Origin: Baffinella frigidus
Taxonomy: Eukaryota; Cryptophyceae; Cryptomonadales; Baffinellaceae
Assembly: GCA_026770585.1 (NCBI GenBank)
Contig: MU646630.1
Coordinates: forward strand, 28,399 to 92,398
Length of the DNA stretch: 64,000 nucleotides
Direction of reading: 5' to 3'
A program made the translations under genes and the position numbers. Numbering within the stretch: the stretch's first letter is position 1; the number at the start of each line of letters is the position of its first letter. This document shows positions 1-61,300 of this stretch, in pieces. The notes below the pieces were generated by a model that was not told the origin of the DNA, did no database searches, and saw only the letters and a program-made list of their open reading frames with translations.

Positions 1-477
1 AAACCCTAAACCCCAAACCCTAAACCCTAAGCCCTAAATCCTAAACCCAAAACTCTAAACCCGAAACCCTGAACCTGAAACCCTAAACCCGAAACCCTGA
101 ACCCTGAACCCTGGACCCCGAACCATGAACCTCAAACCCCAAACCCTAAATTCCATACCCTCAATTCTCAACCCTACACCCTGAACCCTTAACCCCGAAT
201 CCTGAACCCTAAAATATTCACCCTAAACCCTAAACCCTTAACCCTAAACCCTAAACCCTAAACCCTAAACCCTCAACCCTAAACACTACACCCTACACCC
301 TAAAACCTTACTATCAAACCCCAAACCCTAAACCCTACACCCAAAACCATAAATCCCAAACTCTGAACGCTGAACCCTAAACCCTGAACCCTGAACCCTG
401 AACCCTGAAACCTGCACCCTGAACCCTGAACCCTGAACCCTGAAACCCTGAACACTGAACCCTAAACTCCAAAACAG
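1..477 (+). repeat. Degenerate telomere-type (CCCTAAA/CCCTGAA)n array
   Basis: The block is made of CCCTAAA, CCCTGAA and CCCTCAA variants. It is not a clean chromosome end, because the units are heavily diverged and single-copy coding sequence follows directly. The array ends in AAAACAG at 477, a usable 3' splice site, and an open coding frame begins at 478. I read it as the 3' part of an intron of the Sfi1-like gene whose upstream exons lie outside the window. The CCCTAAA strand is the sense strand of that gene. Confidence 0.85.
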
Positions 478-4023: not shown

Positions 4024-5882
4024 CTGTCAGGCAGACAGACAGATATAGAGACAGACAGACAGACAGACAGATAATAGAGACAGACAGACAGACAGACAGA
4101 TATAGAGACATACAGACAAGCAGACAGACAGAAAGACAGACAGACAACCAGCCAGACAGACAGACATAAACAAAGGCAGACAGACAGAGAGAGACAGGGA
4201 GCGCGCGTGCGGGCAGCGGCGCCATCCCATCCGGCTCGACCTGCCCAGCGTGCACTGACGCGCCCGCGCCCCGCTCCCAGGACGGCGCGCGTGCGGCACA
4301 CAGCGTTCCTCTGGCTGGCATCCGCGGCCAGGGCAGGGAAGCTTCTCGGGAAGGTGGCGGCGCACGGCGCGGCGCGCCGGAGGAGGAGAGAGGTGGCGTT
4401 TGGCATTGAGAGATGGAGCCTTGCGGCACGGCAGCGCCGCGCGTGGCGCCCGGTCAAGGTGCGAGCTCTCGTGCCACGAGCCCTGCCGGGATCCCTCGGA
4501 CCAGTGAAGCTCTGGCGCGCGATGCAGTGGCAGTGCTGCGTGGGCGACCCTCCGCTCTGATCCTGAAGTGACTGGTGCGATGGGTGAGCAGGAGCGCGCG
4601 ATTGAGGTGTACCACCTCTCGGTGATGCGCAAAGTGTTCCAGCTCCTCCTCGACCCCTGCGCCGCGGAGCCCTTCCACCCTCTCGAGTGGTCGACCGTCG
4701 TCGCCGCGCTCGACCCCCTCGATCATTCGCTCGACGCGGAAGGGGGGGGGGACGTCGAGATCTCGCCCGGGGGGAGCGCTGGGGGGAGCGTCAGGATCGG
4801 GGTGGGGCACGGGCGCGGGCTCAAGGCCGTGGGGCGGCGTGCGGCGCGGCGCATCATCGCCGGGACCTTCTCGGCCATCGCGTCTGCCGCTGCGCACGGT
4901 AGCTAGCGCCCCCCTACACACACATCGTGTGGTTGCGCCACGCGCCAGTGTGGTGGCAGTGCCTGAGCGACTTGCGGATCGTGCCGGACCAGAGCACGGC
5001 CGACCCGTGCTCTCGCGGCAACTTCCCGGGCAGGCGTGGACGGGTTTCTGGGCGCGGCCTTGCTCGGGTTGCTGACCTTGGCTGGGCGACGGCAGCGCGC
5101 GAGAGCGAGGGGGTGGCGGAGAGGCACGCGGCCGCCGTCGCGATCCGGAGGCGCATCTCGACGAAAGCCAGGAGCCTCGCAGCCTGGCGCACCCATTCGG
5201 CGCACAAGCAGGTTGTTGCGATACACAATGTCCACCCTCTCCCGTGCATCCTCTTTGCTAGCCGTGTTGGTCGTGGTGGTCTGACTGGCCGCAGTTTCGA
5301 GCGACGATTCCTCCCCGGAATCCAGGCGGTTTCGGGACGTCCACTCACAAGCGTTTACGTATAGTCTTGGAGCACCAGTCTATAGAGCAGCGTCGGGTGC
5401 AGCAGCCGGTCTACAAGCCCGACATTGGAAGGTGGTGTTGGCGGACAGTGCGGGTACGGAGAGGAGGGGCCCTCCGCGTGACGGCGGGTGACACGGGTTG
5501 GCAGGCATCTTCGCTTCTCGCGGAGAAGATGGCGCTGATGGACGCGGTGCAAGATGCCCTCGTCGAGCAGCGCGACCTAGCCGCAACCTTCCGCACCCTC
5601 TTCGGCGCCGCCCCCTCCTTGCCCGGCAAGAAGCCCGGCAAGCTCCGGACGCACACCCGCGCGCACGCCCCCCCCACACGTACGCCAGGCTCAGCATTCG
5701 CCGGCTACTCCTCTCCCTTGAAGGAGAGGCAGCCGGGTCTGGTCGGGAGGGTGGGCGCGGCGGCCAGGGGGCTGCGCGAGAGCTACTCGGCGATGGGGGG
5801 GGGGGGCAGGGGAGGCGTGTCGGGAGACAGTGCTGGGGTCAGGCCGGGCCAGGTGTGCTTCCGAAGGCTTGGCGGGTGTTGA
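478..5882 (+). CDS. Sfi1-like centrin-binding repeat protein (5' partial, six exons visible)
   Basis: The protein is a long helical array of about 30 tryptophan-centred repeats, each of the form A-L-x-x-W-(R/E)-x-x-x, mostly 33-35 residues apart, with basic K-R-x-R linkers. This layout is that of Sfi1-type proteins, whose repeats each bind a centrin in contractile fibres at basal bodies or spindle poles; centrin binding here is inferred. Proposed exons: 478-669, 1075-3860, 4281-4458, 4592-4898, 5096-5211, 5505-5882. Each intron starts with GT and ends with AG, phases agree at all five junctions (0, 2, 0, 1, 0), and the joined frame is open for 1318 codons. The repeats continue in the small exons (F-L-W-L near 4310, I-E-R-W near 4410, A-A-W-R near 5185). 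The first exon lacks an ATG, so the start is outside the window. The last exon may instead splice at CAG|GTGTGC (5852). The 420-nt third intron is almost pure GA and GACA repeat. An open frame on the opposite strand of the long exon is a composition shadow. Confidence 0.8.
3966..4199 (+). repeat. Purine microsatellite (GA)n and (GACA)n in an intron
   Basis: An uninterrupted GA run is followed by GACA/GATA tetranucleotide repeats. The tract fills most of the intron at 3861-4280 of the Sfi1-like gene, between donor GTATGC and acceptor CTCCCAG. Confidence 0.95.
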
Positions 5883-11104: not shown

Positions 11105-11371
11105 GGAACCCTAACTCCTGAACCCTCAACCCTGAAACCTAAACCTAGAATCCAAAACCTTCAACCCTGACCCCTAAACACAAAACCCTGAAACACAAAC
11201 CCTAAACCCTAAACCTTGAACCCTAAATCCTACATCATCAACCCTGGACCCTGAACACTAAACCCTAAACCCTAAACCCTAAACCCTAAACTCTAAACCC
11301 TGAACCCTAAACCCTAAACCCTAGACCCGACACCCTGAATCCTAGTACCTGAACCCTAAATCGCTGGACCT
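11105..11371 (+). repeat. Degenerate telomere-type CCCTAAA array
   Basis: The units are CCCTAAA with CCCTGAA and CCCTCAA variants on the plus strand. The array is bounded on the right by unrelated AT-rich sequence from about 11372. Confidence 0.9.
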
Positions 11372-11824
11372 CCCATCGGATCCGCCTTTTTCTCAAAAAA
11401 AGAAACTTTTCGACTAGAAACTAAATGGCTCAAAGCACTCAAGAAAACAGCACCAAGGTACCAATCGATTATTACGGAATTTTCCCGACGAAAATGGACG
11501 ATCAAACCCGAAAGGACCTACAATGCCACTTAGGTGATCGGGAAAAGACTACGATGGGAGCACTTCTGCAAAAGATAAAAAAGACACTACAGACCAATTC
11601 TTTCCAACTGACAACTGAAACCACACTGGACTCACGCAGGAAAAGGCTAAATACCTGATCGTTGGTGCTTGGGGGGAGGGGGAAAGAAAGGGGCTCGGCT
11701 GGACCTGCATGGGTTGGGTCGAGGAGCTCACCCGTAGATTGTTCCCATCTCTTTCAGAGTGAGGTGGGCGTGGCCTTTGATGTGAGTGTGATACAAAGCA
11801 CCAAAGAAACAAAGTATCTGCGAG

Positions 11825-12055
11825 GGTCCTTTCTACGGAAGGGCGTGTCGTTGGCATATGTTGGGGGCATTTGAAACCTAAAGGATCTAAAGGTATCTCC
11901 TTTTTTTCAGGTTGCCTTTACCCGGTTTCTGCTGCGATCCTTTGCACCGGGGGGGCTGGATGTGATCCGAAAGAAAACATGGCTTTTCTGCAGAACCAGT
12001 TCCAGTGTCCGCCTATGTTGGGAGCTCGAAGAACCTGGAGAACCTAAAGGATGTT
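11825..12055 (+). repeat. Two SINE-like repeat copies (family S)
   Basis: Copy one (11825-11894) contains TTTCTACGGAAGGGCGTGTC and GTTGGCATATGTTGGGGGCA, and ends in CCTAAAGGATCTAAAGG. Copy two (11938-12055) contains GATGTGATCCGAAAG, CATGGCTTTTCTGCAG and GTCCGCCTATGTTGGGAG, and ends in ACCTAAAGGATG. The same text recurs, in both orientations, at many places at 24, 35, 41 and 47-52 kb. The shared feature is a 3' tail of one to three CCTAAAGGA units. Confidence 0.75.
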
Positions 12056-12173
12056 ATGGCACCTGTCTGCGATGTTGGGCAGCAGGGATTGGTGCTTACG
12101 ACTGAGGAGCTGTGTGGCGCGTGTCATGCTTGCGACTCCGGAGCTCTGTGGCGCTTGTCCCCAAAATCACACC

Positions 12174-14655
12174 GTAAACCATAAAACCTGAACCCTCAAC
12201 TCTGAACCCTAAACCCTACACCCTGAACCCTAAACCCTAAACCCTCAATCCTGAACCCTAAACCCTAAACCCTAAACCCTAAACCCTAAACCCTAAACCT
12301 TAAACCCCAAACCCTAAACCCTGAACCCTAAACCCTCAACCTCAACCACAAACCCTTAACCCTAAGCCCTAAACCCTAAACTAAAACTCCTGAACCAAAA
12401 ACCCCAATCCCTGAATGCAGAACCCTCAACCCTGAACCCTGAACCCTGACCCCATACCCTACACCTTGAACCCCAGATGATCAACACAAAACACTTGACA
12501 CTAACAACTAACACTGAACCCCAAAAGCTACACCCTCAAACCTCAAACCCAAAATCGAAACACGAAACCCTAAACTCAAAGCCCCAAAACCTCATGTAGG
12601 GTTTAGGGTTCAGTGACGAATACATGTAAGAAAGAAATATACAATCCAAAGCCAACCGATTTGCATGCAAATATTTTCAGGCACACCTCAATGCTTCAAA
12701 GTCAACCGATTTTCATATAATGACTGTCATAAAAACGCAACGCTTCAGCCATAAAAAATAGTTGAAGTCGTTACTCTTTTGAAGCTTGTACGAAAAAACA
12801 CATTGAACCACCCTAAACCCTAAACACTGAAACTTAAACTTTGAAAAACCAAATTATACGCACCGAAGGCTGAACCCTAAACACTAAACCCTAAACCCTA
12901 AACCCTAAACTTTGAATCCTCCAACCTAAACCCTCAACCCTAAACCGTAACCCCTAAACTTTGAACCCTGAACACTCAACCTTCGACTCTAAACCCTGAA
13001 CCCTCAACCCTCAACCACAAACTTTATACCCTAGACCAAAACCCTGAACCCTAAACCCTGAACCCGAAACCCTAAAACCTAAACTCTTAACCCTACACCC
13101 TACACCCAAATCCCCAAACCCTCAACCACCGAGTCTATACCCTCAACCCTAAACCCTTAACCGTGCACTCTGCACCCTAAACCTTGAACCCTAAACCTTT
13201 AAAACTCTCAAATGTAAACCCTAAACCCTAAACCCTAAACCTTAAACCCTAAACTCTGAACCATCAACCCTGAACCCTGAACCCTAAACCTTTAAACCTG
13301 AACCCTACACCTAAACACAAAACAATAAACCCTAAACACTAAAACCTAAACAATAAACCCAACCCCTAAACCCTGACCCCTAAACCTTATATCCTGAACC
13401 CTGAAACCTCAACCCTAAACCCTAACACCTAAACCCTAAACCCTAAACCCTAAACCCCACAACTTCAACCCTAAACCCTAAACCCTACACCCTAAACCCT
13501 TAAACCTGAACCCTACACCTGAACACAAAACAATAAACCCCAAACCCAAACCTTACACCCTGACCCCTAAACCCTAAATACTGAACCCTGAATTCTCAAC
13601 CCTAAACCCCAACACCTAAACCCTAAACCCTAAACCCTAAACACCACAACTTCAACCCTAAACCCTAAACCCTACACCCTACACCCCAAACTTCTACACT
13701 TTGAACCCTCAAACCCCAACCCTATACCTTATAACCTGAACCTTGAATCTTCGACCCTTAAATCTTATCTGAAACTTATACCCTAAACCCTAAACCCTTA
13801 ACCCTGACCCCTAAACCCTCAAATCCAAATCACAAACCCAAACCTCCAGACCCTAAACAATGAAACCCATACCATGTGCCCTAAACTCTGAACCCTAAAC
13901 TCCTCGCCCCGAACCCTAAACCCTCAACGCTAAACCCTGAACCCCAAACCTTGATCCGATAACCTTCCACCCCAAACCCTCTCTCCTAAACCCTCAATAC
14001 CCAATCTAGACACCTACACCCAAAACCTTACAAATCATACCATCAACCCTAAACCCTAAAACCTCCACCTCTCCACCCTTCACCCTAAACCATAAACCCT
14101 CAATCCTAAGCCCTAAACTCTAAACCCTAAACCCTAAACCTTGAACTCTAAAACCTAAACCCGAAACCCTAAACTATGAACCCCAAACTATAAACCATAA
14201 AACATAACCTTAAACTCTATACCCTAAACCTCAAAGCCTCAAACCTCAACCCCAAACCCTCAACCCTCAACCCTCAACCGGAAACCCTCCACCCTAAAAC
14301 CTAAACCCTCAAACCTCAACCCCAAACCCTCAACCCTCAACCCTCAACCGGAAACCCTCCACCCTAAAACCTAAACCAACCGGAAACCCTCCACCCTAAA
14401 ACCCAAACCCTTAACCCTAAACACCAAATCTAAACACCTATACTCGAAACCATCAACCTCATACCATCAACCCTAAACCCTTAAACCTCCATCCTCTAGA
14501 CACACCTCCACCCTAAACCCTAAACCCTAAACCCTAAACCTTGAACCCTAAACCCCAAACCCTAAACCCGAAAGTATGAACCCTAAACTACAAACCACTG
14601 AAACCCAAATTCTATACCTAGTATACCCTGAACCTTAGAGCCTCAAATCTGATCC

Positions 14656-14687
<32 letters not shown>

Positions 14688-15002
14688 ACCATCAAATCTA
14701 AACCTTGAACCATCAACCTAAAAACCCAAAACCCCAACTCTAACCCCTCAATCCTAAACAATAAACCCTAAACCTTGCACCCTGAACCCTGCACCGTGAA
14801 CCGTACGCACACCATCGACCGTGAAATGTCAACCCTGAACCCTGAACCCTCAATCCCTCAACCCTGAACCATAAACCCCTAAACCCTTCAACCGCAACCC
14901 TACACCCTGAATCCCAACGCTCAACCCTGAGCCCTATCCGCTAAACCCCAAATATTTAATCCTCAACCCCAAACCATATACCGTCAACCCCAAACCCTAA
15001 AC
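12174..15002 (+). repeat. Long degenerate telomere-type CCCTAAA array (2.8 kb)
   Basis: This is the largest telomere-like block in the window, with CCCTAAA variants throughout. Exact CCCTAAACCCTAAA runs occur in places (for example around 12250-12300), and higher-order duplications occur (14230-14390, where a unit of about 80 bp containing CAACCGGAAACCCTCCACC repeats). A stretch of about 200 bp of unrelated AT-rich DNA at 12600-12810, with two copies of a CAAAG(C/T)CAACCGATTT motif, interrupts it. No gene can be placed in it. Confidence 0.95.
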
Positions 15003-15330
15003 GGAGGCAGCAGGAGGCGGTTCGCCCCGCGGCCGGCGAGCGCGGCTTCACCGCCCAGCAGCCTTCACCGAGAGGCTCGAATCATGGGCGTGGTTCACGA
15101 GCATCAGGACCCTCCCGCGGGCGTAAGGTCTTGGCAACAGCTTGCGTCCCCACCCAAACCTAGGATTTTGAACCGTCCACCACAAAAGTCATCAGGTCCA
15201 CTTTGGTTGATGGTCAAACTTCGATTCGAACGATTTTTTCGATTCGTACGATTTTTTTAGAGGATGTTGATGGCACCTGTCTGCGATATTGGGCAGCGGG
15301 GATTGGTGCTCACGATATAGGATCCAGTCC

Positions 15331-15533
15331 CTTAACCCTGCACCCTAATCCATAAACCCCGAGCCCTGAACCCTAAACCCTAAACCCTACACCCTAAACC
15401 CTAAACCCCTCTCCCTACCCCCCCCACCCTCAACCCTAAACCCTGAACCCTACACCCTGAACCCTAAACCCTTCACCCTACACCCCAAACCCTAAACCCT
15501 AAACCCTAAACTCTAAACCCTTAACCCTCACTT
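15331..15533 (+). repeat. Degenerate telomere-type CCCTAAA array
   Basis: Plus-strand CCCTAAA and CCCTGAA units with a short CCCTACCCCCCCCACC interruption. It is separated from the array ending at 15002 by about 330 bp of non-repeat DNA. Confidence 0.9.
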
Positions 15534-20243: not shown

Positions 20244-23200
20244 ATGAGGATGAAGATCGCGGCGGCCACTGGGGCGGCGCTTCTCTCCCTGGCGCTCATC
20301 GCGTCCGTGCTCCAGTCGGGGGGGAAGGCGCCGACGGAGATGATCATGGTAACCACCCATGGTCGCCAAGACGCCCCGCTCTGCCGTGCACCCTGAAGAT
20401 GCTGCCCTGAAGGCGCGAGTGGGTGGCGTTGCTGACGATGGTGTCCCTTTGCAGCCGTGGTACACTGTGATCTCGACGGGAGACGGCACTGGCCCGGAGT
20501 CGGTAAGACCCCCCCACAACAGGCCCGCGGTTGGAGAACATCAGAAAACCCACTCTCTGCAGAGGTTCCTTTGCTGCACATGCTCGCAGCGCAGGCGCTT
20601 GGGGTTGGTGATCCGGCTTGGTCAGAAACGGCAAGATTCGGCAACGTGGCTGACGCGCTGTACGGACAGGTGGCCAACTGGAAGGAGCAGCCGCCCGTGG
20701 CGTACAGCCGCCCGCCGACCAACACCTTCCAGGAAAACCTCAACCCTGAACCCTAAATCATAAACCCTAAAACCTAAACCTGAAAATCCAAACCCTGCAC
20801 CCTGCACCCTACGCCCTAGCACCCAAACCCTACCCCCTAAAACCTAAGCCCTAAACCCTAAACCCTAAACCAGGACCCGACAAAGTGGAACGGCGACCAC
20901 ACGCTGAACGGCGGCAACAAGGAGTGGAGCGAGGAGGATGCAGCCCTGCACGCGTACACGATGGAGTAAGTGCCCGGCCCAGACACCAGTTGTCGGGATC
21001 GTTGTCGGTCCTGTAGGTAGCTCCCCGGACCTCTCAGCAGGTAGGGTTGTGTTATCAGCAGAAAACTTATCACGCTATCCGCTGAGTGCTGATGGAGCGT
21101 TTGCGGTAATTGTTGTCCGTTTTGGACGTGCGGTTTTCCGGTTTCCCGGTTTTCATTTGTACCAGAAGTGTCCATTTAAAATGTTTTACGATCTTGGAGC
21201 AGCGCTCAAAGTGTCCTTGCGAGACGCGTGGCATGCTGCACCATTGACGCGCCTTGCTGCCTGCGCCCCGCGGCGCCGCGCGCACGCACGGCAGCACGTG
21301 CTCTGATGGCGAGAGCTGGCGGTGACGAAGATGGTGGTGGCGCTGACTGGGATGGCGCGATCGCGCAGGAACTGGCGCAACTCGATCCTCAACACCCAGG
21401 TGGATCGCCAGGTGCACAACTTCAAGCTCATGCACTCTCTGCAGCAACAGGCAGCGCTGGACAACTCGCCCGCCGCCGCTACCACCCTCCAGGTCAGATC
21501 CGTCGGCAACCCGCCTTGCTCATTTTCGCATCACGGTGTTGGCCTTGCGCCTCGGCGTGAAATTGCGATGCAGAAAGTTTTTTCGGGCATGAAGAAAGAC
21601 GCACGGCGTGCACTCTTTCGCGTCCAACCCCTTCACCCCCGCGGTAGGCGACGCAGCCCGTGAAGGCTTCGGGGGAGGAGAAGCAGCTTCGGCAGCTGAC
21701 CAAGGCGGTCGCGACGCTCACCAAGGCTGTTCTCGCGGAGCACCCGCACGGGGGGGCGCGCGCCGCCGCGTCCATTGGGGGCAAGGCCGCCAGCACTGGA
21801 CAGCTGCTGCAGATGGAGAAGAACAACGCTGCGATGATGCACAAGGTGCGTGCCGTGTCCGCAATCCAGTCAGCAGCCACCGGTGCCTTAGGGAAGCGGT
21901 CCATCTAAACTATTGCCGTGCAAATTGATCCTTTCGCCAGTAACGTGACCAATTTTGACCGGATATGCGAGTACGTTGGGCGCCACTCACTTTAAAGTGG
22001 TGTCTATGCCCATCACCGCAATCTTCGACACAGCCTCTGGCATTGCACTCGGTGTGTAGTCCTCCCAGAAGTCAACATCTTAGCAACATAGGCGTTTTCG
22101 CTTCTGCATCGTTACCACTCAAAAGGCTACGAGTCACTTCTTCCCCGGATATCCGGGGATAACGTGACCAACAATTGCTGACTGTTGGCTCGTTTCCAAA
22201 GAAACAATCCAACAATAAGTTTGGGAACGTTCCCGAAATGTTGGTTGTTGGCACGGGCTGAAGGTACGACGGTAAAACCACCCTATTTTGCAATGGTGTT
22301 GTCTTCGTTTCTGGGAGCGGAGTACAGCGCGGACCCGAGTCTGAGCCTCGTGGTCTGCTTCCGAGGCAAAAGGGGGTTTGGGGCCGAGGAACAGAAGCAG
22401 TGGTGCATCTGCCCTCCCCGCCTGTCCCTGAACTGAGCCCGAGCTTCCTGCAGTCGTGCTCTGTGATGAAACAACGATGCCACCCATCGCGACCTATATC
22501 AAATCCGAGATCACAACCAACATCACAACCAACATTATTCCTCAAACAACATTATTCTTCAACACTCAACCTTCAACCCGCATCCCTCATCCCCAAACCC
22601 TGAAACCTAAACCCTTGAACCTTAACCCTAAACCCTGGACCCTAAACCCTACGACCAAAACACTAAACCCTGAATCCCAAACCCTAAACCCCTAACCCTA
22701 AACCCTACTAAATCCTAAACCCTAATCGCTCAACCCTAAAGCCTAAAGCCTAAAGCCTAAACCCTAAAGCCTAAACCCTAAACCCCAAACCCTAAACCCT
22801 AAACCCTAAATACCAAACTCTAAATCCTAGACCTCAAACCCTGAACCCTAAACCCTAAACCCTAACCCCTAAACTCTCAACCCTAAACCCTAAAACCCAA
22901 ACCCTAAACCCTAAAACATAAACCCTAAACTCTGAACCCCCAACCCTAAATCTTACAACATAAACCCGAAACCCTAAAACCTGAATCCTCAACCCAAAAC
23001 CCTGAACCATACTCAACCCTAAAACCTAAACCCTAAACGCTGAACCCTAAACCCTAAACCTTACAATCCAAACCCTAAACCCTAAACCCTAAACCCTTGA
23101 CCCTCAACCCTCAACCCAAAACACTAGACCCTGAACCCTAAACCCTAAACCCCACACCCTAAACCCGAAACCCTAAACCCTTTACCCTAAACCCTGAACC

Positions 23201-24362
23201 CTAAACCTTAAACCCTGGACCCTAAACCCTAGTCCCTAAAACCTCAACCCTCAACCCTGGACCCTAAACTCTCAACCCCCAAACACTAAACCCTAAAACC
23301 CAAATCCTGAACCCCAAACTCTCAGCCCTCAACCCTAAACCCTGAACCCTGAATCCCAAACCCTGAACCCTGAACCCTAACACCCTCAACCCTAAACCCA
23401 AAACCCTAAACCCTAAACCCTAAACCCTAGCCCGCAACTGTAAACCCCAAACTCTCAATCCTGAACCCGAACCCCTCAACCCAAAACCCTACACGACCAA
23501 CCCTGAAACCCCAACCCTAAACCCTGAACTCCAAACCCTAAACCCCAAACCCTCAACCCTCAACCCTCAACCCTCAACCCCAAACACCGAACACCGAACC
23601 CTAAACCCTAAACCCTAAACCCCAAACTCTAAACCCTAAACCCTAAACGCTAAACCCTAAACGCTAAACCCTAAACTCTAAAGCCTAAAGCCTAAACCCT
23701 ACACCCTAAACCCAACCGCGATGGTGCAGGTGATGAACCGTCTGCGGCAGCAGTCGGCGCGGGTGCACGGCGTCAAGCACCGCGAGCACCGTCTCGAGAG
23801 CAGGTTCCCCGCCCCTTGTGCATATCGTATCCCTCAAGTGGCCACTTTCAGGGGTACCTCGCTCATAAGAAAACGCTTCCCCCTAGGGACCCCCATAGGG
23901 CCCTACTGTAGGGTCCTAGGGGGGGGGCGTTTTCTTATGAGCGAGGTACCCCTGTAAGTGGACAAAACGCTTCCCCCTAGGGACCCCCATAGGGCCCTAC
24001 TGTAGGGTCCTAGGGGGGGGGCGTTTTCTTATGAGCGAGGCACCCCTGTACGGGATAGACCTTTATGATGCCAGCGCTATGCATTGGCCTCGCAGGAAGG
24101 CCCAGCACCCTCATTTCGTTTCCGCCCCTCCACGCTGGTTGCTGCCCACGCGTCCACCAAGTTCGGCATTCGTTGGCGGGGATGGCGATTCCTGGCGCGT
24201 GTCTGGAGCTAGGTTGGATCAAGTGCTGAGCCGGGTGTGTGTGGGTGTGCCAGGGACCGGGTGATCAGCGAGCTGGAGCTTCAGAACCGCAAGACGATGC
24301 GCCAGATCAGCCAGCGCCTCGGCGACCTTTCCACGGAGACGGACAAGGCGGACGACGCATGA
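20244..24362 (+). CDS. Hypothetical secretory/plastid-route coiled-coil protein, eight exons
   Basis: I do not recognise the family. Proposed exons: 20244-20348, 20455-20502, 20595-20732, 20874-20966, 21316-21492, 21657-21845, 23730-23803, 24254-24362; about 310 residues. The N-terminus (MRMKIAAATG, then a Leu/Ala-rich core) is a good signal peptide. The middle is acidic and Trp-containing; the C-terminal half is a basic helical coiled coil (KQLRQLTKAVATLTKAVLA; ELQNRKTMRQISQRL) ending at TGA 24360. Junctions 1, 2, 5, 6 and 7 are GT-AG with matching phases (0, 0, 0, 0, 2). Two junctions are not standard. The third has no GT donor and is flanked by CCAGGA direct repeats around a telomere-like insert. 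The fourth has a strong donor (ATGGA|GTAAGT), but the only acceptor that keeps the frame is one base off AG. This may mean unusual introns, an assembly error or early decay. Introns carry repeats at 22560-23720 and 23849-24048. It starts 177 bp from the lumen-protein gene. Confidence 0.6.
20733..20873 (+). repeat. Telomere-like insert acting as intron, flanked by CCAGGA direct repeats
   Basis: The 141-nt segment is nearly all CCCTAAA/CCCTGAA units. CCAGGA occurs at 20729-20734 and again at 20870-20875, exactly one insert length apart. Removing 20733-20873 joins Gln and Asp codons in phase 0 and leaves GA...AG ends, with no GT donor at the left. Confidence 0.75.
21088..21195 (+). repeat. Interspersed repeat, second copy at 42388-42478
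   Basis: The text GCGTTTGCGGTAATTGTTGT, then CGTTTTGGACGTGCGGTTTT, then TTTCATTTGTACCAGAAGTG, recurs with few changes at 42388-42478. Here it lies in the fourth intron of the hypothetical gene. Confidence 0.8.
22560..23720 (+). repeat. Degenerate telomere-type CCCTAAA array filling an intron
   Basis: This 1.1-kb run of CCCTAAA variants occupies most of the 1884-nt intron at 21846-23729. It ends at CCTAAACCCAACCGCGATGG, just before the acceptor TGCAG. The CCCTAAA strand is the sense strand of the host gene. Confidence 0.95.
23849..24048. mobile_element. Foldback element family A (copy 2) with tandem partial copy
   Basis: The full hairpin is 23849-23954. A second, left-truncated copy (about 23962-24048) repeats its interior and right arm. 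The insert splits a family B left end (TATCCCTCAAGTGGCCACTT | CAGGGG...CCCCTG | TAAGTGG). All of it lies in the intron at 23804-24253. Confidence 0.85.
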
Positions 24363-34599: not shown

Positions 34600-35600
34600 A
34601 GATGATGTGTTGGAGGTGGACGGTGTGTACCGTGTGGGGGCCGATTCCCGGCAAACAGGTGGAAGGCATGGTCTAGAAAGGACGCCACGATCGAAGACAA
34701 CATCAAGTGCTCGGCATAGGGCACGTGCTGTACCGAGCAACAAGTGCTCGGTACAGGGCACGTACGATATAGGGCACGGAAGACAGCCGCACTAGCCCAG
34801 GGCGGGGGGCATGGTCTAGAAAGGATGCCACGATCAAACACACCATCAAGAATTTCGCGGGGGGGCGTATCGCAGACAACATCACGTATTTGGCAGGGGT
34901 GCGTAAGTATTTGGCAGGGGGGCGTACGGGAAGACAGCCGCGCTAGCCCAGGCGCGTTCCATATCCACAGGGGTCTTTCGCTGGAAGTTTCTCCCGTCCC
35001 ACGTGTACACCTGCGCGCACTCCGGTCACTCATGCCTGGTGTGGGTAGCCACTTGGCAGCCACCAGGGGCTGCACGGACACAGTCCATCTACTCAAATTG
35101 TATCCATTGCCCAGGAAACTAACCGGGATTTCACCTTGACTTCAAAATGAAAAGGAACTCGGCCGCCTCAGTGGTTCGCCACCTTAACCTCGGAGTTCCC
35201 CGCTCACCCAACGCACGTTGGAGTCCTCCAACCCACACATTTGACTACGGGCCTTTCTTCAAAAGACAACTAACCCTGTGATCATTTAACTTTGAGAATT
35301 TTCAAACGCAAATCTGGTCATGTTACCGCTAAATGTAGGGGTCCCGGAAGCCTCGAAGGCCACCGTGTGGCTACCCACCCCTTCTGGCCTGCGTGCGCCT
35401 GGTCTGAGAGTGCTTACCCTGCGAGGCCCGCTTGGTGCGAGGTCCACTTAGCGCAAGGTCCACTTAGTGGCAGGTCCACTTAGTGATCACGAAGTGGCAG
35501 GTCCACTTAGTGATCACTAAGTTGACCTCGCAGGGTGTCAACTTACATCGTCCTCAGGAGATGCCTTCATCCGGAGAGAAGAGCGTTTTGCACACCAGAT
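34600..35600. other. Stretch without a supported gene, with local duplications
   Basis: CATGGTCTAGAAAGGA(C/T)GCC occurs at 34667 and 34810, and GGAAGACAGCCGC(A/G)CTAGCC at 34780 and 34929. CAAGTGCTCGG-TA/CA-GGGCACGT units lie at 34709-34770. At 35440-35520 the unit AGGTCCACTTAGTG is repeated about four times and includes a GTGATCAC palindrome. Confidence 0.6.
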
Positions 35601-35610
35601 TTTCGACGCT

Positions 35611-35679
35611 ACCTTTAGGTCCTTGAGGTTTTAATTTCGCCCAACATACGCCAACGCCACGCCCTTTTGTAGAAAGGAG
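35611..35679 (-). repeat. SINE-like repeat family S, minus-strand copy
   Basis: Reading the minus strand gives TCCTTTCTACAAAAGGGCGTG, GGCGTATGTTGGGCGAAATT and CCTCAAGGACCTAAAGG, the 3' half of the family. Confidence 0.75.
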
Positions 35680-35892
35680 CCGAAATGCGTTTGCGTGACC
35701 GTGCACGGTGATTGACTACAGCAAGATTTAGAGGCTGGGTACGTGGATGGGCACACCCGAAAGATCCAGTGTAAACAACGTACTCCATCCGGTCAGCAGC
35801 ACACGCAGGGCGTTTCCAGCAAATTGTTTGCAGCAGGTGCCGCATCAGGTTGGGCATCAGGTTGAGTGTTCGGTGCTTGCAAAGGTTGCTGG

Positions 35893-36290
35893 TTGTTTAG
35901 GGTTTAGGGTTGAGGGTTGAGGTGTAGGTTTAGGGTTGGGGTCTGGGTTTTAGGGTTTAGGGTTTAGGGTTTACGATTTAGGGTTTCGAAGGTTTAGGGT
36001 TTAGGGTTTTAAGGTTTCGGGGCTGAACCGTGCGGGAGATTGCTGTATAGGCCAACCCTCCGATGACCCAGATCTGGGGGGGCGGGCACACGAAATCGTC
36101 AGAGGGTTGAGGTGCGAAAGCCCTTCACCTGCAGCTTGAAGGATGGTGGTAGGGTGGAATCAAAATTAGGGGTCGGGGTTTAGGGTTTAGGGTTTAGGGT
36201 TTAGGGTTTAGGGTTTAGGGTTTAGGGTTTAAAGTTTATGGTTTAGGGTTTGGGGTTCAGGGTTTATGGTGTGGGGTTTAGGGTGAAGGT
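35893..36290 (-). repeat. Telomere-type array, TTTAGGG on the plus strand
   Basis: Two blocks (35893-36030 and 36175-36290) of TTTAGGG variants, separated by about 150 bp of single-copy DNA. The CCCTAAA strand is the minus strand here. Confidence 0.9.
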
Positions 36291-36330
36291 GACAACACTG
36301 CGGCACGGCAGCAGAGCCCTCAGAGCACTC

Positions 36331-36474
36331 TCATCTCGCAAGATAACTGAATCAGTTCCTTCTCAATAGAAGGTTGAATAGGAGAAATTAGTTAAGGCAT
36401 AGTATATTCAATTAGGCCTCTTAATTCAACGAAAAAGCTAATTAGGGAACTGATTCACTTATCTTTCGAGATGA
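36331..36474. mobile_element. Foldback element, TCATC/GATGA termini (AATTAG type)
   Basis: Termini TCATCTCGCAAGATAACTGA and its near complement ending CTTTCGAGATGA. It is flanked by ACTC at 36327-36330 and 36475-36478. The interior is AT-rich. Confidence 0.85.
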
Positions 36475-37253
36475 ACTCTGAGGGGGGGGCAGGCAGCCTC
36501 GCACGTGGGGGTGTGGTCGAGGTTGCGCGTGGGGGTGTCAGAGTGGTCCACTTAGAGCGGTCCACTTAGTAGGGTCCACTTGCCGCCATAAGTGGCCGAG
36601 ATGGCCAGTCTCTCAGGGTGTGGTGGGGTCGGGCGCACCTTATCCTGGAAGACAGTCATGCTCGCTCCGTACACCGCCTGTGGTAGAGAGATTGATAATG
36701 AATTGCCAAACAACCAGCGTCAGCGCCGCACATGCTCGACGCATTGTGCCACTTAATGTACCCCGTGTCGGCCGCTCATACGAGCATTATCCGGATGGAT
36801 TCTGACTCCACCTCCTACGCCTGCGGTACCACTCACGTGAGGTCACTCTCTTGGTCAATCTTCTCTAGCCTTGCACGGATTGTGGATGACCCCCGATTCG
36901 ACAAACCAGCCTTGCCTGCACGAAAGTTGCGAGACCAGAGCAGAGCCCCCCCGGGCCGCTTTTGCGCGTTGCCAGCCTGCTTGTACTTTCTCGAAGACCA
37001 AGAGCCTCGCGACGAATCCCTCCGAAGAATGCAAGGGCGGTCGCTGAGCAACTCCGATACGTGCATCCGTTCTCAACCCTCATGGTTCGTAGTATGGTTT
37101 CCTTTGAATCCTCGTGTTTGCATTATTGTACGGTAGTCCTTACGGTCCTTGTGTTTCCTCTTAATCCGTTGAATAACCTCTTTTCTCAGAAACTCCATTC
37201 GCCGCAAGACGTTCAGAGGGCGGCGCTCTGCATGTTTCGGATTGCATCCGGTC

Positions 37254-38436: not shown

Positions 38437-38480
38437 TACGCCACACGGGGGAGCACTCCCCACCGGCACGACGCCGATTT

Positions 38481-38712
38481 AGGGTGTAGGGTTGTGGGTG
38501 TAGGGTTGAGAGTGTAGGGTGCACGGTTTAGCGTTTGGGGTTTAGGGTGTAGGGTTTAGCGTTTGGGGTTTAGGGTTTAAGGTTAAGGGTTTAAAGTTGA
38601 GGGTTTCGGGTTTCGGGTTTCGGGTTTAGGGTTTAGGTTCAGGGTTCAGGGTTCAGGGTTGAGGATTTAGCATTTAGAGGTTGGGGTTTAGGGTCTAGGG
38701 TTAAGGGTTTGG
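38481..38712 (-). repeat. Telomere-type array, TTTAGGG on the plus strand
   Basis: TTTAGGG, TGTAGGG and TTCAGGG variants. A GC-rich open stretch follows at 38725-39000 with no clear gene signature on either strand. Confidence 0.85.
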
Positions 38713-39000
38713 AAGAGGGCATCGGTGATTGTCCCAGCAGAGGAGCAGACACAACCTCTTCCTCTGGGGAGAGGAAGAGGAGCAGGCAGGAAACGAGCCC
38801 AAACTCACCAAGATCGTGAGCCCAAATCGACTGAGACAGAGCTAGGGGAAGACGCGGTAGCGGACCTTGTAGACCGTGGAGACGTGTCCAGATCGTTCGA
38901 TCTGGAGGCACTTGGCCGCATCTCCTACCCCCCCCTCGTCCCCGTTCGCCCCCCCTTGCATCGAACACTCCACCCGCCACTGCGCGCGCGCGATAAGTTT

Positions 39001-39235
39001 ATGGTGTAGGGTTCAGGGTTTATGGTTTATGGTTTATGGTTTATGGTTTAGGGTTTAGGGTTTAGGGTTCAGGGCTTGGGGTTAAGGGTTTGGGGGTTGG
39101 GGTTTGGGGTTTAGGGTTGAGGGTTTAGGGTTTAGGGATTAGGGTTTAGGGTTTAGGGTTTGGGGTTTCGAATTGAGGGTTTAGGGCTTAGGGTTTAGGG
39201 TTTGGGGTTTATTGTTTGGGGTTATGGCTTCAGGG
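39001..39235 (-). repeat. Telomere-type array, TTTAGGG on the plus strand
   Basis: It opens with TTTATGG units, then TTTAGGG and TTTGGGG variants. Confidence 0.85.
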
Positions 39236-39430
39236 TGTAAGATTTTAGCTTCCGCACAGTGTCCCTCGCCCCCCTGAACCGCGCCGCGTGTGTCCAGCAA
39301 GCAGGTGAAGCTCTGCTCAGGGATCCTAGGACCTGAGTCCCACCCTTCTCTGGAAGCTCTGGAAGAGGCCACTTCCAACGCCCTGCGTGCAGAGAGAGAG
39401 AGAGAGCCCTGCGTGCTCATGCTCATAGAC

Positions 39431-41847: not shown

Positions 41848-42170
41848 TTGCACAATGTCTTGCCCCCGATCGCATAGATGCGGCCCCTGCCGGTGAATTC
41901 TCTTGAGGATAGTGAATTCTCTTCTGCATAGTAAATTCTGCCCCGGATGGTGAATTTTGGTCTTCTGGATAGTGAATTTTCCCCCGTGTAGTGAATTTTG
42001 GTGTTGCACAACGTCTTGCCCCCGGTCGCATAAATCCGCCCCCTGCCGATCCACACCAAAATTCACTATCCGGAAAAGAATGCGCTATCCACACGAAAGT
42101 GAACTATCCACAAGACAATTCACTATGCACAAGAGAAATTCACTATGCTGTCGCAGCGGACACCGTCGGA
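41848..42170. repeat. Duplicated block with reiterated ATAGTGAATT units
   Basis: CTTGCCCCCGATCGCATAGATGCGG (41862) recurs as CTTGCCCCCGGTCGCATAAATCCG (42015). Between and after them the unit (A/T)TAGTGAATT occurs at least six times. It switches to the opposite strand (AATTCACTAT) from about 42058. Confidence 0.7.
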
Positions 42171-43149: not shown

Positions 43150-43460
43150 GGTTCGGGGTTTAGGATTTAGAGTTCAGGGTTCAGGGTTAAGGGTTCAGGG
43201 TTTAGGGTTTAGGGGTTAGGGTTAAGGGTTTAGGGTTCAGGGTTCAGGGTTTAGGGTTTAGGGTTTAGGGTTGAGGGTTTAGGGTTTGGGGTTTAGAGTT
43301 TCGAGTTTAGGGTTCAGGGTTGAGGGTTCAGGGTTTAGGGTTTGGGGGTTAGGGTTAAGGGTTTAGGGTTCAGGGTTCAGGGTTTAGGGTTTAGGTTTTA
43401 TGGTTTAGGGTTTAGGGTTTGGGGTTTAGAGTTTAGGGTTTAGGGTTTAGGGTTTAGGGT
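43150..43460 (-). repeat. Telomere-type array, TTTAGGG on the plus strand, at the 3' side of the kelch gene
   Basis: TTTAGGG/TTCAGGG units abut the last exon seen of the minus-strand kelch gene, so CCCTAAA is the sense strand of that gene. The in-frame TGA at 43461-43463 comes from a CCTGAACCC unit of the array, or the array is the body of one more intron. Confidence 0.9.
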
Positions 43461-46400
43461 TCAGGAGTTGTCGCGGGACCTGTAGACGGCGAGAGAGAGG
43501 CCGCCTCTGTGGAAGTTGAGGCCAGGCTCCTTGCGCCACTTCCCGCCTGCCACGCCAGAGTGCAGGAGGGTGTTGATTTTTTTTGTTGATTTTTTAAAAC
43601 CGCGTCTGAAAGCGGTTGTTGACTTTTGAAAACCACTGCCATGAGGAGGAATTGACTTTTGTCGACCCCTTCCAAGGCTCTGGCGTGGTGCCAGAGCCAC
43701 TGTCACGCCAAGAGGCCTCTCGACCTCCCCTCTCCGAAACCGCAGCCACTCTTAACCCTTGAGGGTTCATCACTCAAGGGCTAAGAGTGGTCTTAACCCT
43801 TGAGTGATCAACCAGACCGCGCTTAACCCTTGAGTGATGAACCCTTTAACGAATAACCCTTTGGTGGTAAACCCTTGAACGATGAACTCTTCAACGGCAA
43901 TACCGAGACCCTCACGGTTCACGCCTTCCGACAACAACGCGTGTTCTTATTCGCGAGCTTTTTATTCGCGAGCAACCCCTGTATCCTCTACATCTACATA
44001 AAGACACCACTCCACAGCCCCGCATCGGCTCTGGGCGCGCGCATGAGTCTATGGCTGCTCCGTGATGGGGTGTGGGGCGGGTGGCTCAGCAGCTTCCGTA
44101 AGAGTCACTGCGGGTATCTAGGCTCTAAGGGCATCTAAGGACGCAAGGTTATGAGGACGTCGGCGTAGATTCACTTAGGCCTCCTTAAGTGCATTCACTT
44201 AGGCCGTCTAACTCTAGCGTTCACCGTCACAGTTGGTGCGAGGGTGCATCCGCTACCGAGCGAGGACGGGACACGATCTTAAAAACTTTAACCTGAATCC
44301 TGAAGGAAATGGACTTTTAAGATGAAAAGCCAGGACCGGAATCCCGGTCCTGGCTGTCTTATATGTGACGAGTTGGCTCGACAGCGATACTGGATGTCTG
44401 CTGCACGGAGCCTTGCAGGAAGCACTACTGACTTCATCGCGATCCATAATAGAATTAATCTCGGAACTGTCCTTCTAAACAATTCTTGGTACAACTCCTG
44501 ATATTTTAAAGCCCTAAAATTACGAATACTTTGAAACCCTAAAAGTTATTGGTACAGATCTTCGTTTAGAAGGACGTTTCAGAGATTAATTATGTTTGGT
44601 GCTGGGACTAGCTATATTTGGTGCTGGGACTAATATATTTGGTGCTGGGACGGACCTGGGGAGCCGTCATACGAGTGGACGTCCCCCCACCCCGAGTGGC
44701 CAACCGCGTAGATCCGTCCCGCCAACACCACCGCCCCTGTCGACAGTCCGTACCTTCCAGGGGGGTTGAGGTTAGGGTGTGGGGTTGGGGGTGGGGCTCA
44801 GGGGTTAGGGGTTAGGCGCACACGTGTTGCAATTTACTGGAAGCCCATCAAATCGCGAAATGCTTGGTGTTACTGAGCGATAACAACAGACCCAGGCGTT
44901 CGGCCGAGGCTCTTACACTTGAGATGGAAATGCAGCATGGGGCGGGGGCGCCTGATCCCTGAACCCTGATCCCTGAATTTGAATCTGGAGAACAAAAAAA
45001 CTGAAAGACGCAGAAGTTTGAGGTTTAGGGTTCACGATTTAGGGCAAGTATTTGAGGTGTATGGGGTTTAGGGTTTAGGGTTTAGGGTTTAGGGTTTAGG
45101 GTTGAGGGTTTAGGGTTCAGGGTTCGAGGTTGAGTGTTTGGGGTTTAGGGTTTAGGGTTTAGGGTTTAGGGATCAGGGTTTAGGGTTTAGGGTGTAGGGT
45201 TTAGGGTTCAGGGGGCAGGGTCTAGGGTCTAGGGTGTAGGGTATAGATAGGCACCCGTAGGTTCCGAACTTGTTGGGCGGCAGCATCTGCTCCGAGCCCC
45301 AAGTTGTTCCGTTGAATGCCTCCACCGCTGGCAGAAACGTCCTGCCCATCCACAGGGAGTGTTACCCATTTGTTTTGACGACACGGATCCGGAAACGATT
45401 GGCCCGAAAATGGATAGAGGTGAGTGGGGTAGGTGTCTGGGGCTTTCTCGCGGCTCACCCAGCAATGGTTTCGAGTTGCCGGAGTCAGTTGAGATTCAGA
45501 GCTGTGGTTGGACTTATGCTCCGGCCGGGACGACTCCGCGCTTACCATCGCGCAGCATGCGTGTATTAATCCAGTTGTACTAAGATTTATGAAGAAGGTG
45601 CACGCCCTTCATTAAGAAGGTACACGCCCAAGGAAATTCCGGCGCCAGTTGAATTCTGACGGAGCAGAGCAAGCAGGCTAGGAAGCGGCTCGGGGTTGAG
45701 TGCGAGTGTTGCGTGTTGCAGGTGAGGCAGACAGAAGCACACGGACGGACGGGGTTGAGAAGAGACGTAATCTCCATAGAAGTATTAATTAATTGCTTAA
45801 ATTCTGACGGAGCGTTTCTTAAGGCTCATAGACTTTTCTATCACTCAACTCAAGGCACAGAGGCCTGTTTTAGGACCTGCATCGAGAGTAATCAAGAAGA
45901 AGAAGAAGAAGTAGCAGAGCAAGCAGGCTAGGAAGCGGCGCGGGGTTGAGTACCAGTGTTGCGTGTTGCAGGTGAAGCCAATAGGGTAACGGCCTGAAAC
46001 TGGGGTAGTTAGGCCTACGGGATTGCCTAGGACTTCCTACCGTAGGCCGAGACTTTTTGGTCCTAGGATCCCTCGGCCTACGGTAGGAGGTCCTAGGCAA
46101 CACCGTATGCCTGACTACCCCATTTTCAGGCCGTTAGCCTATGAAAGCAGACAGAAGCACACGGACGGATGGGGTTGAGAAGAGACGCAATCTCCATAGA
46201 AGTATTAATTAATTGCTTTCGGGCGATGAAAATTACTACACGACTTACGCATAAAAGTAATAGTAAAGCATTTGTGTAGTAAATTTCGTCGCGCCAAAAA
46301 CAATTAATTAATACTTTTGTGGAGATGAGACTGGGGCGATTACCCTGGGCCTGAATCAGCGCCACCGACGGCGAAGAGGCACGACACGTTGACTCCACAC

Positions 46401-56803: not shown

Positions 56804-58242
56804 GGCGGGGACCTGCGAGTTGATGAAGCGGAGGATGAGCTCCGTGGAGCGCTGCTCGACAACCCCGAGGAACAGCATCACGTTGGCCTCGTTGATGATG
56901 GGGTTGCCGTTGGGCCCGCACTGGAAGGAGTCGTTGGTGTTGATCAGCCGCGAGCACCTGCACCCCACGCGCGCGCCCGGCCGTTAGCCGTCTCGCCCGG
57001 CCGTTAGCCGTCATCACACACGAGAGAGGCGGGGGGCAGGCCTGCGCCATCCCTCTAGGCAGCCACGTGGGCGCTCATCGAGGTGCGGGAAAGCGCGAGC
57101 CAATCCGTCGCTGTCTGCGCCAAGTGGGCGTTGTTCGTTCGTTCGTTCGTTCGTTTGTCTGGCTGAGTGGGTGATTGACTGTCTGGAGGGCGCGGCGACG
57201 GGGCATCTTCAACACTTGCAGCCGCGAGTGGGATCGGCAACGCACCCGAGCTCCTCGTACATGCGGCGGATGATCTTGAGCACCTCCCGCACCTTGGAGC
57301 CCTCCTCCTCCTCGAGCTCGAACAGCTCCTCGCCCTTGGCCTGCGTCTGCGCCAGCTGCTCCTCCAGCCGCCGCTCCATGCTCTTCTTCGCATGCTCGTC
57401 TCCTGGATAGGGTTTGGTTTTTTTTATAGATCTGAGATCTTTTTTTATAGATCTTAGATCTTTGGGGTTTAGATGTTAGACCGTTTCGGGTGTGGGGTTC
57501 AGGGTTTAGACCTGGATCGTTCATCCTGTTCCGCTCCACCGCCATCTTGTGCACCTGGCTCAGGGCTCAGGGCTCAGGGCTCAGGGCTCAGGGCTCAGGG
57601 CTCAGGGCGCAGGGCTCACAGGGCTCACAGGGCTCAGGTTTCAGGGTTAGATTTCAAGGTTTAGGGTGTAACCTGCTCAGCGAGACGCTCCTCCTCCTGG
57701 TTGAGTTCGTTGACAAACTTGAAGAGCTTGAAGTTCTGCTCCTCCGCCTCCAGGAAGGTGGTCACAAGCTCGTCAATGTCCTTGAGCCCCGTCGCCTCCT
57801 GTGGGAGGACCCGCATGAACCACCGTCAGTCCACGCTGAGCCATCGTCAAGGGAAGTGAACCCCTGCCTCGTCAAGGGAAGTGAACCCCTGCCTCCCACC
57901 AGAAAAAGGCCAGACTCTCCCACCCACCGTCAGTCCACGCCGAGCCATCTTTGTCAACAGGCAATCCAACCCCGACCCACCACCAGAAAATGGTAATCCT
58001 ATCCGTTACCCCCCCCCCCCCACGCCTGCTCATGTGAGCTTCCCCTGGATACTGCGTCACCGTCGTATGCAGCCCGCCAGACCGGTGAAGATCGACACGG
58101 CGACCGGCCGGATGAGCCTCGGAACCGCATACGGTCAGTCCACAGTACCAACCTCACCCGGTTCAGTCAACAGTGGGACGGGGGGCTCTCAAGGCCTGGA
58201 ACAGGGTTGTCCACGCCTGTCGTGAGTGTGTGCGTGTGTGCG

Positions 58243-58313
<71 letters not shown>

Positions 58314-61300
58314 CTATCCTCATCACTTTCTGGAAGCCTGCTCGGACAACCCTGCGCAATTCATCCAACCGCAAGTTCGGCTCTCATGGGGGGGGCGGGG
58401 CACCTGCAGCTTAGCGAACGCGTTCTCAAAGCGCTCGACGTCAGCCTTGGAGGCCTCGTACTTGGCAGTCAGCTCCTGCAGCTGGGCCTTCTCCGCATCC
58501 TCGTCCTCTGTCAGTCTGCTGTTCTTCGCCTCTGCGTCCATCCTCGCCTTTACCTGGTGTTGGGGTTGGGGGTTTAGGGTTTCACGCCGTCGCTGCCCCG
58601 TTCGGCAGAGCGATGCCCCGTGCGACCCCCCCCCCCCCCCATGTGTCCAATCCCCTCTCTACTCGATGTTGCACCATTCCCTTCCCTCGTGAAGGGACCC
58701 ACGCCTTTCCAGCCCTGCTCTCACTGCTTGAGTAACCGCCCGGATGCATTCCCTTGGGCCCCTTGGGCCCCTTGGGCCCCTCGGGGCCCCTCGGGTCCTC
58801 GGGTCCTCGGGTCCTCGGGTCCTCGGGTCCTCTCTGCACCCCTTTCCCCGTCACTACGCCTGACTCATCAGGGCTGATCCCACAACAGTGGCGCGAAACC
58901 TGAGCCGGACTACCCTCAGGGTTTCTACCGCAATTCCCACCCACCATGCTGCTCAGGTCGCCCCCACCACCCTCGGCATCACGGTAGGCTAAGCCATGGA
59001 TGGACCGATACATATACTACTATAGTAATACTATCCCGTAAGTGCCCAGTAGGCTCATACGCCCTACCGTAGGGCCCTAGGACCAGCCTAGGACCTCAGG
59101 CCCCCAAATTTGGAGGCCTGGTCACTTAAGGGATAGTGTTGTTGTGGCAAATATTTGACCATCAAAATATTTGACCGGACCCTACGAGGGGCACCTGCAA
59201 GCAGTAGGGCAGGCACGCAACCTACTGAATTCACCTAAATGGAACAACCTGTTCGCTTCAACGAAACGCAGCACACCTACACAACAAAACATGAAAATCT
59301 CCAGAACCAATATAATTCATTATTAATTGAAACCTGGCGGCGGCGCTTCTCCTCAGAGTCCATCTCCTCATCGAGGTTGCGCCACTCGGCGTCAAACTCC
59401 GCCTGGCACTTGGTGAGCTGCTCGGTCGCCTCGGCGATCTTCTTGTTGGCAGCGTTGCGCGTCTCGAGCGCCACGTTGGTCGCCTGCGGGACGGGGTCCA
59501 GCCAATCACGGACCCGAATCAACCACCGTCAGTCCACGCTGAGCCATCTTTGTCAAGGGAATTGAACCCCTGCCTCCCACCAGAAAAGGCCAGACTCTCC
59601 CACCCACCATCAGTCCACGCCGTTGCGCGTCTCGAGCGCCACGTTGGTTGCCTGCGGGATGGGGTCCAGCCAATCTCATCCGCACGAGTATTTGAGTCAA
59701 ATACGATTTCTAGGACCTATCAACGAAAATTACTACACAATTGGTTCATAAAAGTAATAGTAAAACCTGGTGTGTAGTAAATTTCGTTGCCAAGATCGAG
59801 CGCCACGTTGGTTGCCTGCGGGATTTATCCGGGGAAACCCATTTTTCTTTCATTTGATGGCAACGAAAATTACCACACAATTCGTTTCTATTAGTAATAT
59901 TAAAGAAGTTGTGTAGTAATTTTCGTTGCCATCAGATGAAAGAAAAACAGTTTTCCCGGAAAAGGATGGGGTCCAGCCAATCACGCTTCCGACACGAGCG
60001 CCTCGTACCCACCCGGACTGCCTGCCTCATCTGGAGGCAGCTATCTGGAAGCGACTGTTCCCCGAACACGCAGGGGTCCTTGCCAGCAACACCTGCTCGC
60101 CCCTCCTGCTCGCCCCTCCTGCTCGCCCCTCGCCCCTCGCAACCGCGCAGGCTGCGACAAACAGGCGCCTCGGACCTGTTTCGCTGCCGGTGCCGGGAGT
60201 GCCGGGACATTTGAGGCCACCCAAGGGTGACAAACATCGCTAGGGAGTGCTGTCAGAGAACGCTGGATCACACTGGCAGAGATTCTCCACCGAAGCTGGC
60301 AGAAGAGGTGCAGGAAACCTCCACGCTGGCCAGTCTCGTCTCTCTGCGACCCCTTCCCAGCTGCAGTCACTGTGCAATTGGAGACGGGGCGCGAGACCGA
60401 GCGGGGGAAGGTGGAGGAGGAGAAGGAGGATGGGGAGAATGGGAGAAGGGCGGAGGGAGGCACCTCGAGGAGGGGGGGAAGCGGAGTGTGGGAAGGTGGG
60501 AGAGGAGGATGGGGAGGATGGGGAGAATGGGAAGAAGGGGGGAGGAGGGCACCTCGAAGGAGAAGGAGGAGGGGGAGAAGGGGGGAAAGGGGATGGCCTG
60601 AGGGGGAGAAGGGCGGAGGGCGGCACCTCGATGAGGAGGATGGGGAGAATGGGGAGAAGGGGGGGAAGGACACCTCGATGGCCTGCGCGATCTCAGCCTT
60701 CTTCTGGTTGAGCTGGGCCTCGAGCCTGGCCTGCACCAGGTCGAAGCTGATGCGCTCCTTTCGCAGGTGGTCGATCTCCGCGCGCAGAAGCTTGTTCACC
60801 ACCAGCGACTCGTTGAACCGCTGCAGCGTCTGTCCAACACCGCCGGGAAGGGGAGGGGTCAGCGCTCTGCTGCCGCTCACCGGGGTTTCAGCTGGGGGGG
60901 CAACGGCCAGCGCTGGAATGGCGGAAGAGAGCAGTGTTGGAGGGTCGAGGCGGGGCTCGGGATGGGGGGGAGGATGCAGGGTAGGCGTCAGACCTGCTGC
61001 ACTCGGTTCTCGAGCATCTCGAGCTTCTTCTTCATCTTGGAGTCTGCCACGTAACTCAACGACTTGCACACGTCGTTTTTGCTCCGGTATTTCTCCCCGT
61101 TTGGCCCCTCGAAGATGGTGCGGCTCCCCTCCTTGACTGGGTTGAAGCCCAGATCATGCAGCTGAGCGACCGTCATTTCCACAGGCTTAACCTTGCCCCG
61201 CATTCGCTGCTGGTATTCGTCGATCTTGGTCGCCACCTCCTGGATTGCAATTTCCAGCAACTCAAGCTCCCGCTCCTCTATTTCAATCTTGGCCGTGTAT

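Follow-up and report, generated by a model that had tools for sequence, protein, structure and literature searches.

Telomere-type repeats lie within introns of several genes in the window, by which we mean the whole 64 kb stretch of Baffinella frigidus DNA analysed here, and they raise the question of why the C-rich strand, CCCTAAA, should be the one read as sense. In the window (GC content 56.0%) CCCTAAA occurs 246 times, against a mean of 9.2 and a maximum of 17 in 100 shuffles. The repeat is also a genome-wide feature, since three exact units in a row gave 53 120 matches (27 288 + 25 832, overlaps counted) across the 382 457 362-base assembly of 1364 contigs and the reversed pattern gave only 27 (14 + 13). 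Arrays are internal in contigs C1, C23 and C65 (2.1, 1.3 and 1.0 Mb), and thus interstitial. TTTAGGG is presumably the telomere repeat of this organism.

The initial annotation had named four window genes with intronic arrays and reported CCCTAAA as the sense strand in each. This was borne out, and the strands of the arrays are as it listed them, although the list itself was short, lacking four arrays in the kelch gene and a large block on the + strand. The ODA1-like gene, on the − strand, is real: one exon matches Pfam ODAD1_CC (E = 3.9e-12) as well as solved ODA1 proteins, and the joined exons align with a solved ODA1 (6u42) at E = 4.8e-18, gapless across the intron at 57672–57555. The strand of that array had been given correctly, but it is mostly a CCCTGAG 7-mer with a single CCCTAAA unit. 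In the following lines, as elsewhere, a slash marks a junction.

57555..57672, − strand: ODA1-like intron GTTACACCCTAAACC...GAGCCAG/G, one telomere-type unit followed by CCCTGAG repeats; junction gapless against solved ODA1.
57403..57511, − strand: ODA1-like intron ATCCAG/GTCTAAACCCTG...CTATCCAG/GAG, array part 57461–57510, with joined exons.
58553..58582, − strand: short telomere-type tail in the ODA1-like gene, ahead of acceptor CACCAG/G.

The kelch gene occupies approximately 47.2 to 34.9 kb of the − strand. Between 35.8 and 45.3 kb six − strand arrays were called; each lies inside this span and is sense, two of them having been listed initially. When the exons FQDK/IWVIGG..ISRT/VYTWDG are joined, the product matches Kelch_1 at residues 3–33 (E = 3.6e-4; 20.4 bits, cut-off 20.1), and two array introns have their junctions within the match.

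44754..45254, − strand: kelch intron holding sense array 45062–45246.
43155..43465, − strand: sense array in the kelch span, after exon segment GGLSLAVYR.
38997..39239, − strand: sense array in the kelch span, overlooked initially.
38476..38712, − strand: sense array in the kelch span, overlooked initially.
36074..36638, − strand: kelch intron holding sense array 36149–36285 (not listed initially); Kelch_1 spans the junction.
35011..36028, − strand: kelch intron with sense array 35894–36021 as its 5′ part (not listed initially); Kelch_1 spans the junction.

The remaining two genes are assigned from open frames and a codon model (approx. 1050 weighted codons, this window). Pfam gave only sub-cut-off matches for them (Ntox14, 19.1 of 25 bits; DUF2478, 17.6 of 22.3 bits) and none to Sfi1.

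1..477, + strand: Sfi1-like gene (the name is that of the initial annotation), 3′ part of a CCCTAAA-type intron ending ...CTCCAAAACAG/CGCG; coding strand by codon model.
20733..20873, + strand: coiled-coil gene intron, 84% array, with a non-GT donor (CCAG/GAAAACC) and acceptor CTAAACCAG/GACCCG; the flanking exons, VANWKEQPPVAYSRPPTNTF and PTKWNGDH, have open frames.
21846..23729, + strand: long intron of the coiled-coil gene, 1884 nt, with sense array 22591–23715.
11106..15530, + strand: block of six called CCCTAAA-type arrays, the largest array block of the window (approx. 4.4 kb), with no gene assigned.

A weak − strand coding segment (15051–15125) lies at the edge of the last of these. Within the window, the called + arrays are all before 23.8 kb and the − arrays all after 35.8 kb. 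Strand and region are therefore confounded here, and the claim that the orientation is not a regional bias required the rest of the genome.

We turned to dynein heavy chains, found by domain search, which yielded two multi-exon genes (on C23 and C65) and a single-match one on C13. The C23 gene (+ strand) has 1254 nt of coding sequence split by 17 introns; its spliced product aligns with 8glv_Fm at E = 9.6e-178, with a sole gap of six residues that lies within an exon. The C65 gene (− strand) is open over 1035 residues once its six introns are removed; residues 1–693, covering every junction, align with 9fqr_D0 at E = 2.1e-269, gapless at the junctions. Sense array makes up at least 40% of 20 of these 23 introns, above 80% of 10 and above 90% of five, and the fullest arrays run from donor to acceptor. 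Many arrays are therefore the intron rather than mere occupants of it.

Exact junctions are available for 33 introns, namely all 23 from the two dynein stretches and ten picked because they hold arrays, so this is not a random sample. Sense array exceeds antisense in 33/33 (mean coverage 65% versus 2%); sense coverage is at least 40% in 26/33, and antisense reaches 24% at most. Donors are GT in 29, GC in three and GA in one, the 3′ end is AG in every case, and the first exon base is G in 31/33. The four non-GT donors are at window 20733, C65 introns 2 and 6, and L015 1500. Typical array introns read CAACT/GTAAACCCTAAACCC...CTAAACCAG/GGAGG and CGTG/GTAAACCCTAAACCC...CTAAACCAG/GGCTT. In such introns G plus repeat (G/TAAACCC) can serve as donor, and the acceptor (AAACCAG/G) departs from the repeat by one or two changes; many arrays end directly at such acceptors, in agreement with the initial remark that several arrays stop within a few bases of the 3′ splice site. 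With GT-AG (minor GC-AG) ends, and with removal giving open, alignable frames, these would be spliceosomal introns, their splicing being predicted because the joined exons align as protein. Judged from the DNA, the arrays in the validated genes fill introns from donor to acceptor, almost always in the sense orientation.

The bias holds when orientation is counted by gene. Over 15 loci (dynein heavy chains, kinesins and others, the window genes included), 44 arrays were sense and four antisense with a 40-nt window caller, 43 and three with a 50-nt window caller, and exact CCCTAAA units divided 358 to 13. Among the nine dynein and kinesin loci that were retrieved through a protein domain rather than through an array, 30 of 31 arrays were sense (binomial 3e-8, arrays taken as independent). 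As arrays within one gene are non-independent, we also give the count by locus: 13 of the 14 with any signal were mainly sense (p = 0.002), ODA1 being scored on its exact units (two sense, zero antisense). Seven kinesin stretches, picked by eye from 45 matches for short gaps between matches, contributed nine called sense arrays and zero antisense, and one of them was array-free. Outside these counts stand the C13 dynein (L046; two + arrays and a + exon, with a single exon match), arrays in L014 and L019–L022 (gene strand not established), the array-free kinesin on C62 and antisense-type stretches below the caller's threshold. Of 20 stretches sampled, 15 were all N and two mostly N. In L022, at 6626–7081, two arrays of opposite orientation adjoin with 13 bases between them. 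Regional strand bias as a cause is rejected, as other contigs and both strands agree; the earlier dismissal of it, which the window could not carry, thus stands on the wider count. Many introns of this algal nuclear genome are almost entirely degenerate telomere-type repeat, with the C-rich strand nearly always the RNA, whichever strand the gene is on and in genes unrelated to one another, as the initial annotation had proposed for its four.

The rule does have exceptions, so the word 'always' did not survive. Three of the antisense arrays are in one locus on C121, alongside one sense array, and they adjoin − strand coding-like segments.

L034 (C121) 6535–6758, 7418–7455 and 7882–7939: antisense arrays; coding segments on the − strand, in tandem copies; the main exception to the sense rule.

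With its tandem copies of one segment, this gene may be decayed. By eye, C121 has further G-rich antisense stretches under the caller's threshold, at approximately 8435–8577 and 5545–5600 and of GGGTCAA and GGGTTGA types, and L053 has such stretches at 230–300 and 455–525. The fourth called antisense array is in the C23 dynein gene, where two introns start with a short antisense stretch beside the donor (one called, one sub-threshold) and end with a sense array; in both, the array nearest the acceptor is sense. Antisense coverage in the exact-junction introns is 1.1% over the last 60 nt or so and 4.0% over the first 60. The suggestion that only sense arrays would splice was accordingly too strong, given these C23 introns and the C121 arrays.

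What the two orientations offer a spliceosome differs markedly. Over 5838 nt of window arrays, GT occurs 3.4 times per kb in the sense direction and 138.7 times in the antisense direction (window background 57.6), and [CT]AGG occurs 0 and 75.5 times (background 11.9), which in the antisense direction means one GT per 7 bases or so and one (C/T)AGG per 13. The C-rich array, almost without GT and without (C/T)AGG, is therefore a near-blank spacer. AG is likewise sparse ahead of the acceptor, with 0 per kb at 5–15 nt, 5 at 15–30 nt and 13–23 further in.

We consider it probable that telomere-type repeats became introns after arriving by telomerase-type repair or array recombination, with orientation then filtered by splicing. 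Telomere-type DNA would enter genes by telomerase-type break repair or by recombination between arrays. In the sense direction it would be a nearly blank spacer lacking GU and YAG/G, with the true sites at its edges, a donor of G plus repeat and an AAACCAG/G acceptor. An antisense array would be dense in UUUAG/GG acceptors and GG/GUUUAG donors and would carry G-runs able to fold as quadruplexes; it would mis-splice and be purged, above all near the acceptor. On this reading the genome would have an excess of AGCAGGT with CCCTAAACCC no more than 25 nt downstream over the same with GGGTTTAGGG, of CCCTAAACCAGG over CCCTAAACC(C/G/T)GG, and of GTAAACCCTAAACCC over (A/T)TAAACCCTAAACCC. Because the sense array is blank and the antisense one full of false sites, the bias is explained without branch points in the repeat. 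The base composition follows from the repeat itself, so the argument is no proof of selection; we infer selection on orientation, and a splice-signal filter is the best cause, simpler than branch points, to which we return below.

How the arrays arrived is a separate matter. Copies of exon ends are found inside introns at C23:1297710 and 1297916, C23:1299462 and 1299572, L053 200–600 and L056 348–649; those in C23 and L053 include the donor or the array start, and one copy has a stop. These are segmental duplications around arrays, and since introns contain duplicate pieces that join exon and array, array recombination takes part. It is possible that some introns pre-existed and were later filled by arrays. 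More tentatively, telomere repeat synthesis could have served as an intron factory, in which telomerase-type repair of exon breaks made introns genome-wide; donor, spacer and acceptor would all come from the repeat, and splicing would retain mostly the products with the C-rich strand in sense.

The orientation might instead have been inherited, if a few sense-repeat founder introns were copied to new sites, as introners are, by template switching or array recombination. The duplication of exon ends, donor and array within the C23 and L053 introns indicates that array segments do recombine, and one architecture recurs across many genes. On the other hand, the intron sequences are degenerate and mutually different, antisense pieces imply that reverse-direction copying also occurs, and target-site duplications give no signal: end repeats of 26 array introns average 3.42 against 3.25 shuffled (p = 0.15). 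The ATCCAGG and CCAGGA pairs of the window, read as such duplications, are not above shuffles in the same 26 introns. We regard inheritance from founders as fairly unlikely.

The initial annotation suggested that the repeat was retained for the branch point, CTAA, built into every unit. In its favour, CTAA[AC] has a density of 51.4 per kb in the window arrays read as sense, against 0 read as antisense and 3.5 in the background, and 21/26 array introns have CT[AG]A 15–43 nt before the acceptor. But positional enrichment is small and varies with the window chosen: CTAA 12–35 nt before the acceptor is only slightly commoner than inside introns (31 versus 22.2, 25 versus 18.8 and 20 versus 16.6 by window), and the fraction of random windows that reach the observed count is 0.02–0.21 for these comparisons and 0.02–0.56 over 15 tests. 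Moreover, CTAAA differs from CTRAY, the usual branch-point consensus. Retention for this reason is unlikely, although branch points in the repeat are possible and would be compatible with a splice-signal filter.

Insertion itself could set the orientation if telomerase, at a CCAGG break, extended the antisense 3′ end ..CCTGG by TTTAGGG, which would give a C-rich sense strand with a ready CCAG/G acceptor. Ends of AAACCAG/G or ACCAG/G are recurrent, and mammalian telomeric repeats are reported to enter breaks with an in-register 3′ end at 31 of 40 informative loci (PMC7215372). However, sense-strand AGG breaks would prime the opposite orientation equally, and YAG/G is the splice consensus anyway, which leaves this quite improbable. 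If the pattern were an artefact, or if microsatellites had grown neutrally in old introns of an ordinary kind and chance or regional bias had set the orientation, the regional orientation in the window and the three kelch introns that are just 18–49% array would fit. This is highly improbable given that independent contigs and both strands agree, that array exceeds 90% in five of the 23 dynein introns and that the reversed pattern is so rare genome-wide.

Several known systems come close to these introns. Introners and introner-like elements bring mass intron gain by transposons (PMC9860276), and the likeness lies in many introns genome-wide that form one sequence family and bring along their own splice sites. 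They differ in that the family here is a 7-base telomere-type tandem repeat, not many copies of a complex sequence, and in the target-site duplications, for which the 26 introns give no signal. A large introner survey, as described, discarded low-complexity families (PMC9860276), so telomere-type introns were probably filtered out. Interstitial telomeric sequences share the position of telomere-type repeats off chromosome ends (PMC7215372, PMC2246262). Those of mammals are described as inserted at double-strand breaks, and of the human ones 31% are intronic, compatible with random insertion, the authors leaving the effect on splicing for testing (PMC7215372). Here, in contrast, arrays are whole introns and strongly orientation-biased. 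The plant telo box (AAACCCTA) is likewise a short telomere motif in and near genes, reported as 5′UTR-enriched and, in Arabidopsis introns, close to expectation (3829 versus 3945) (PMC3022908). In the intron-rich chlorarachniophyte alga Amorphochlora, introns were gained at AG/G proto-splice sites, as may be the case here, but according to its authors the new introns lack conserved sequence or terminal inverted repeats (PMC12730881). No title or opening of an abstract in the open-access literature searched concerns introns of telomere-type repeat, and in the main text of the Baffinella sp. CCMP2293 genome paper (PMC9756366) the strings 'intron' and 'telomer' are absent. That paper gives a GC content of 53.9%, which fits the 56.0% of the window.

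Telomere-like DNA may have contributed introns to this genome on a large scale, and a genome with many telomere-type introns in one orientation would offer a second, testable intron source. It suggests that repeat RNA lacking GU and AG is tolerated as the body of an intron and may even be ideal for it. Surveys that drop low-complexity introns would overlook such cases.

The window gave no tRNA and no Rfam match. A putative plastid protein gene lies on the − strand at 19410–20067, with no match in the Pfam scan; its signal ends ASAFQ and is followed by RRELLGVALGGAAVLLGAAPVLA, a twin-arginine thylakoid signal, a combination that we take to point to a red-type secondary plastid. In view of these motifs, read by eye, a dinoflagellate source, which the GA and GC donors had brought to mind, was set aside. 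On the + strand, 62205–62945 encodes a Prefoldin_2 domain (E = 2.5e-14). The window also has short palindromic repeats that resemble miniature inverted-repeat elements, at 23870–24050, 42049–42146, 39440–39560 and other positions; one example surrounds CCCTTAAGTGGCC.
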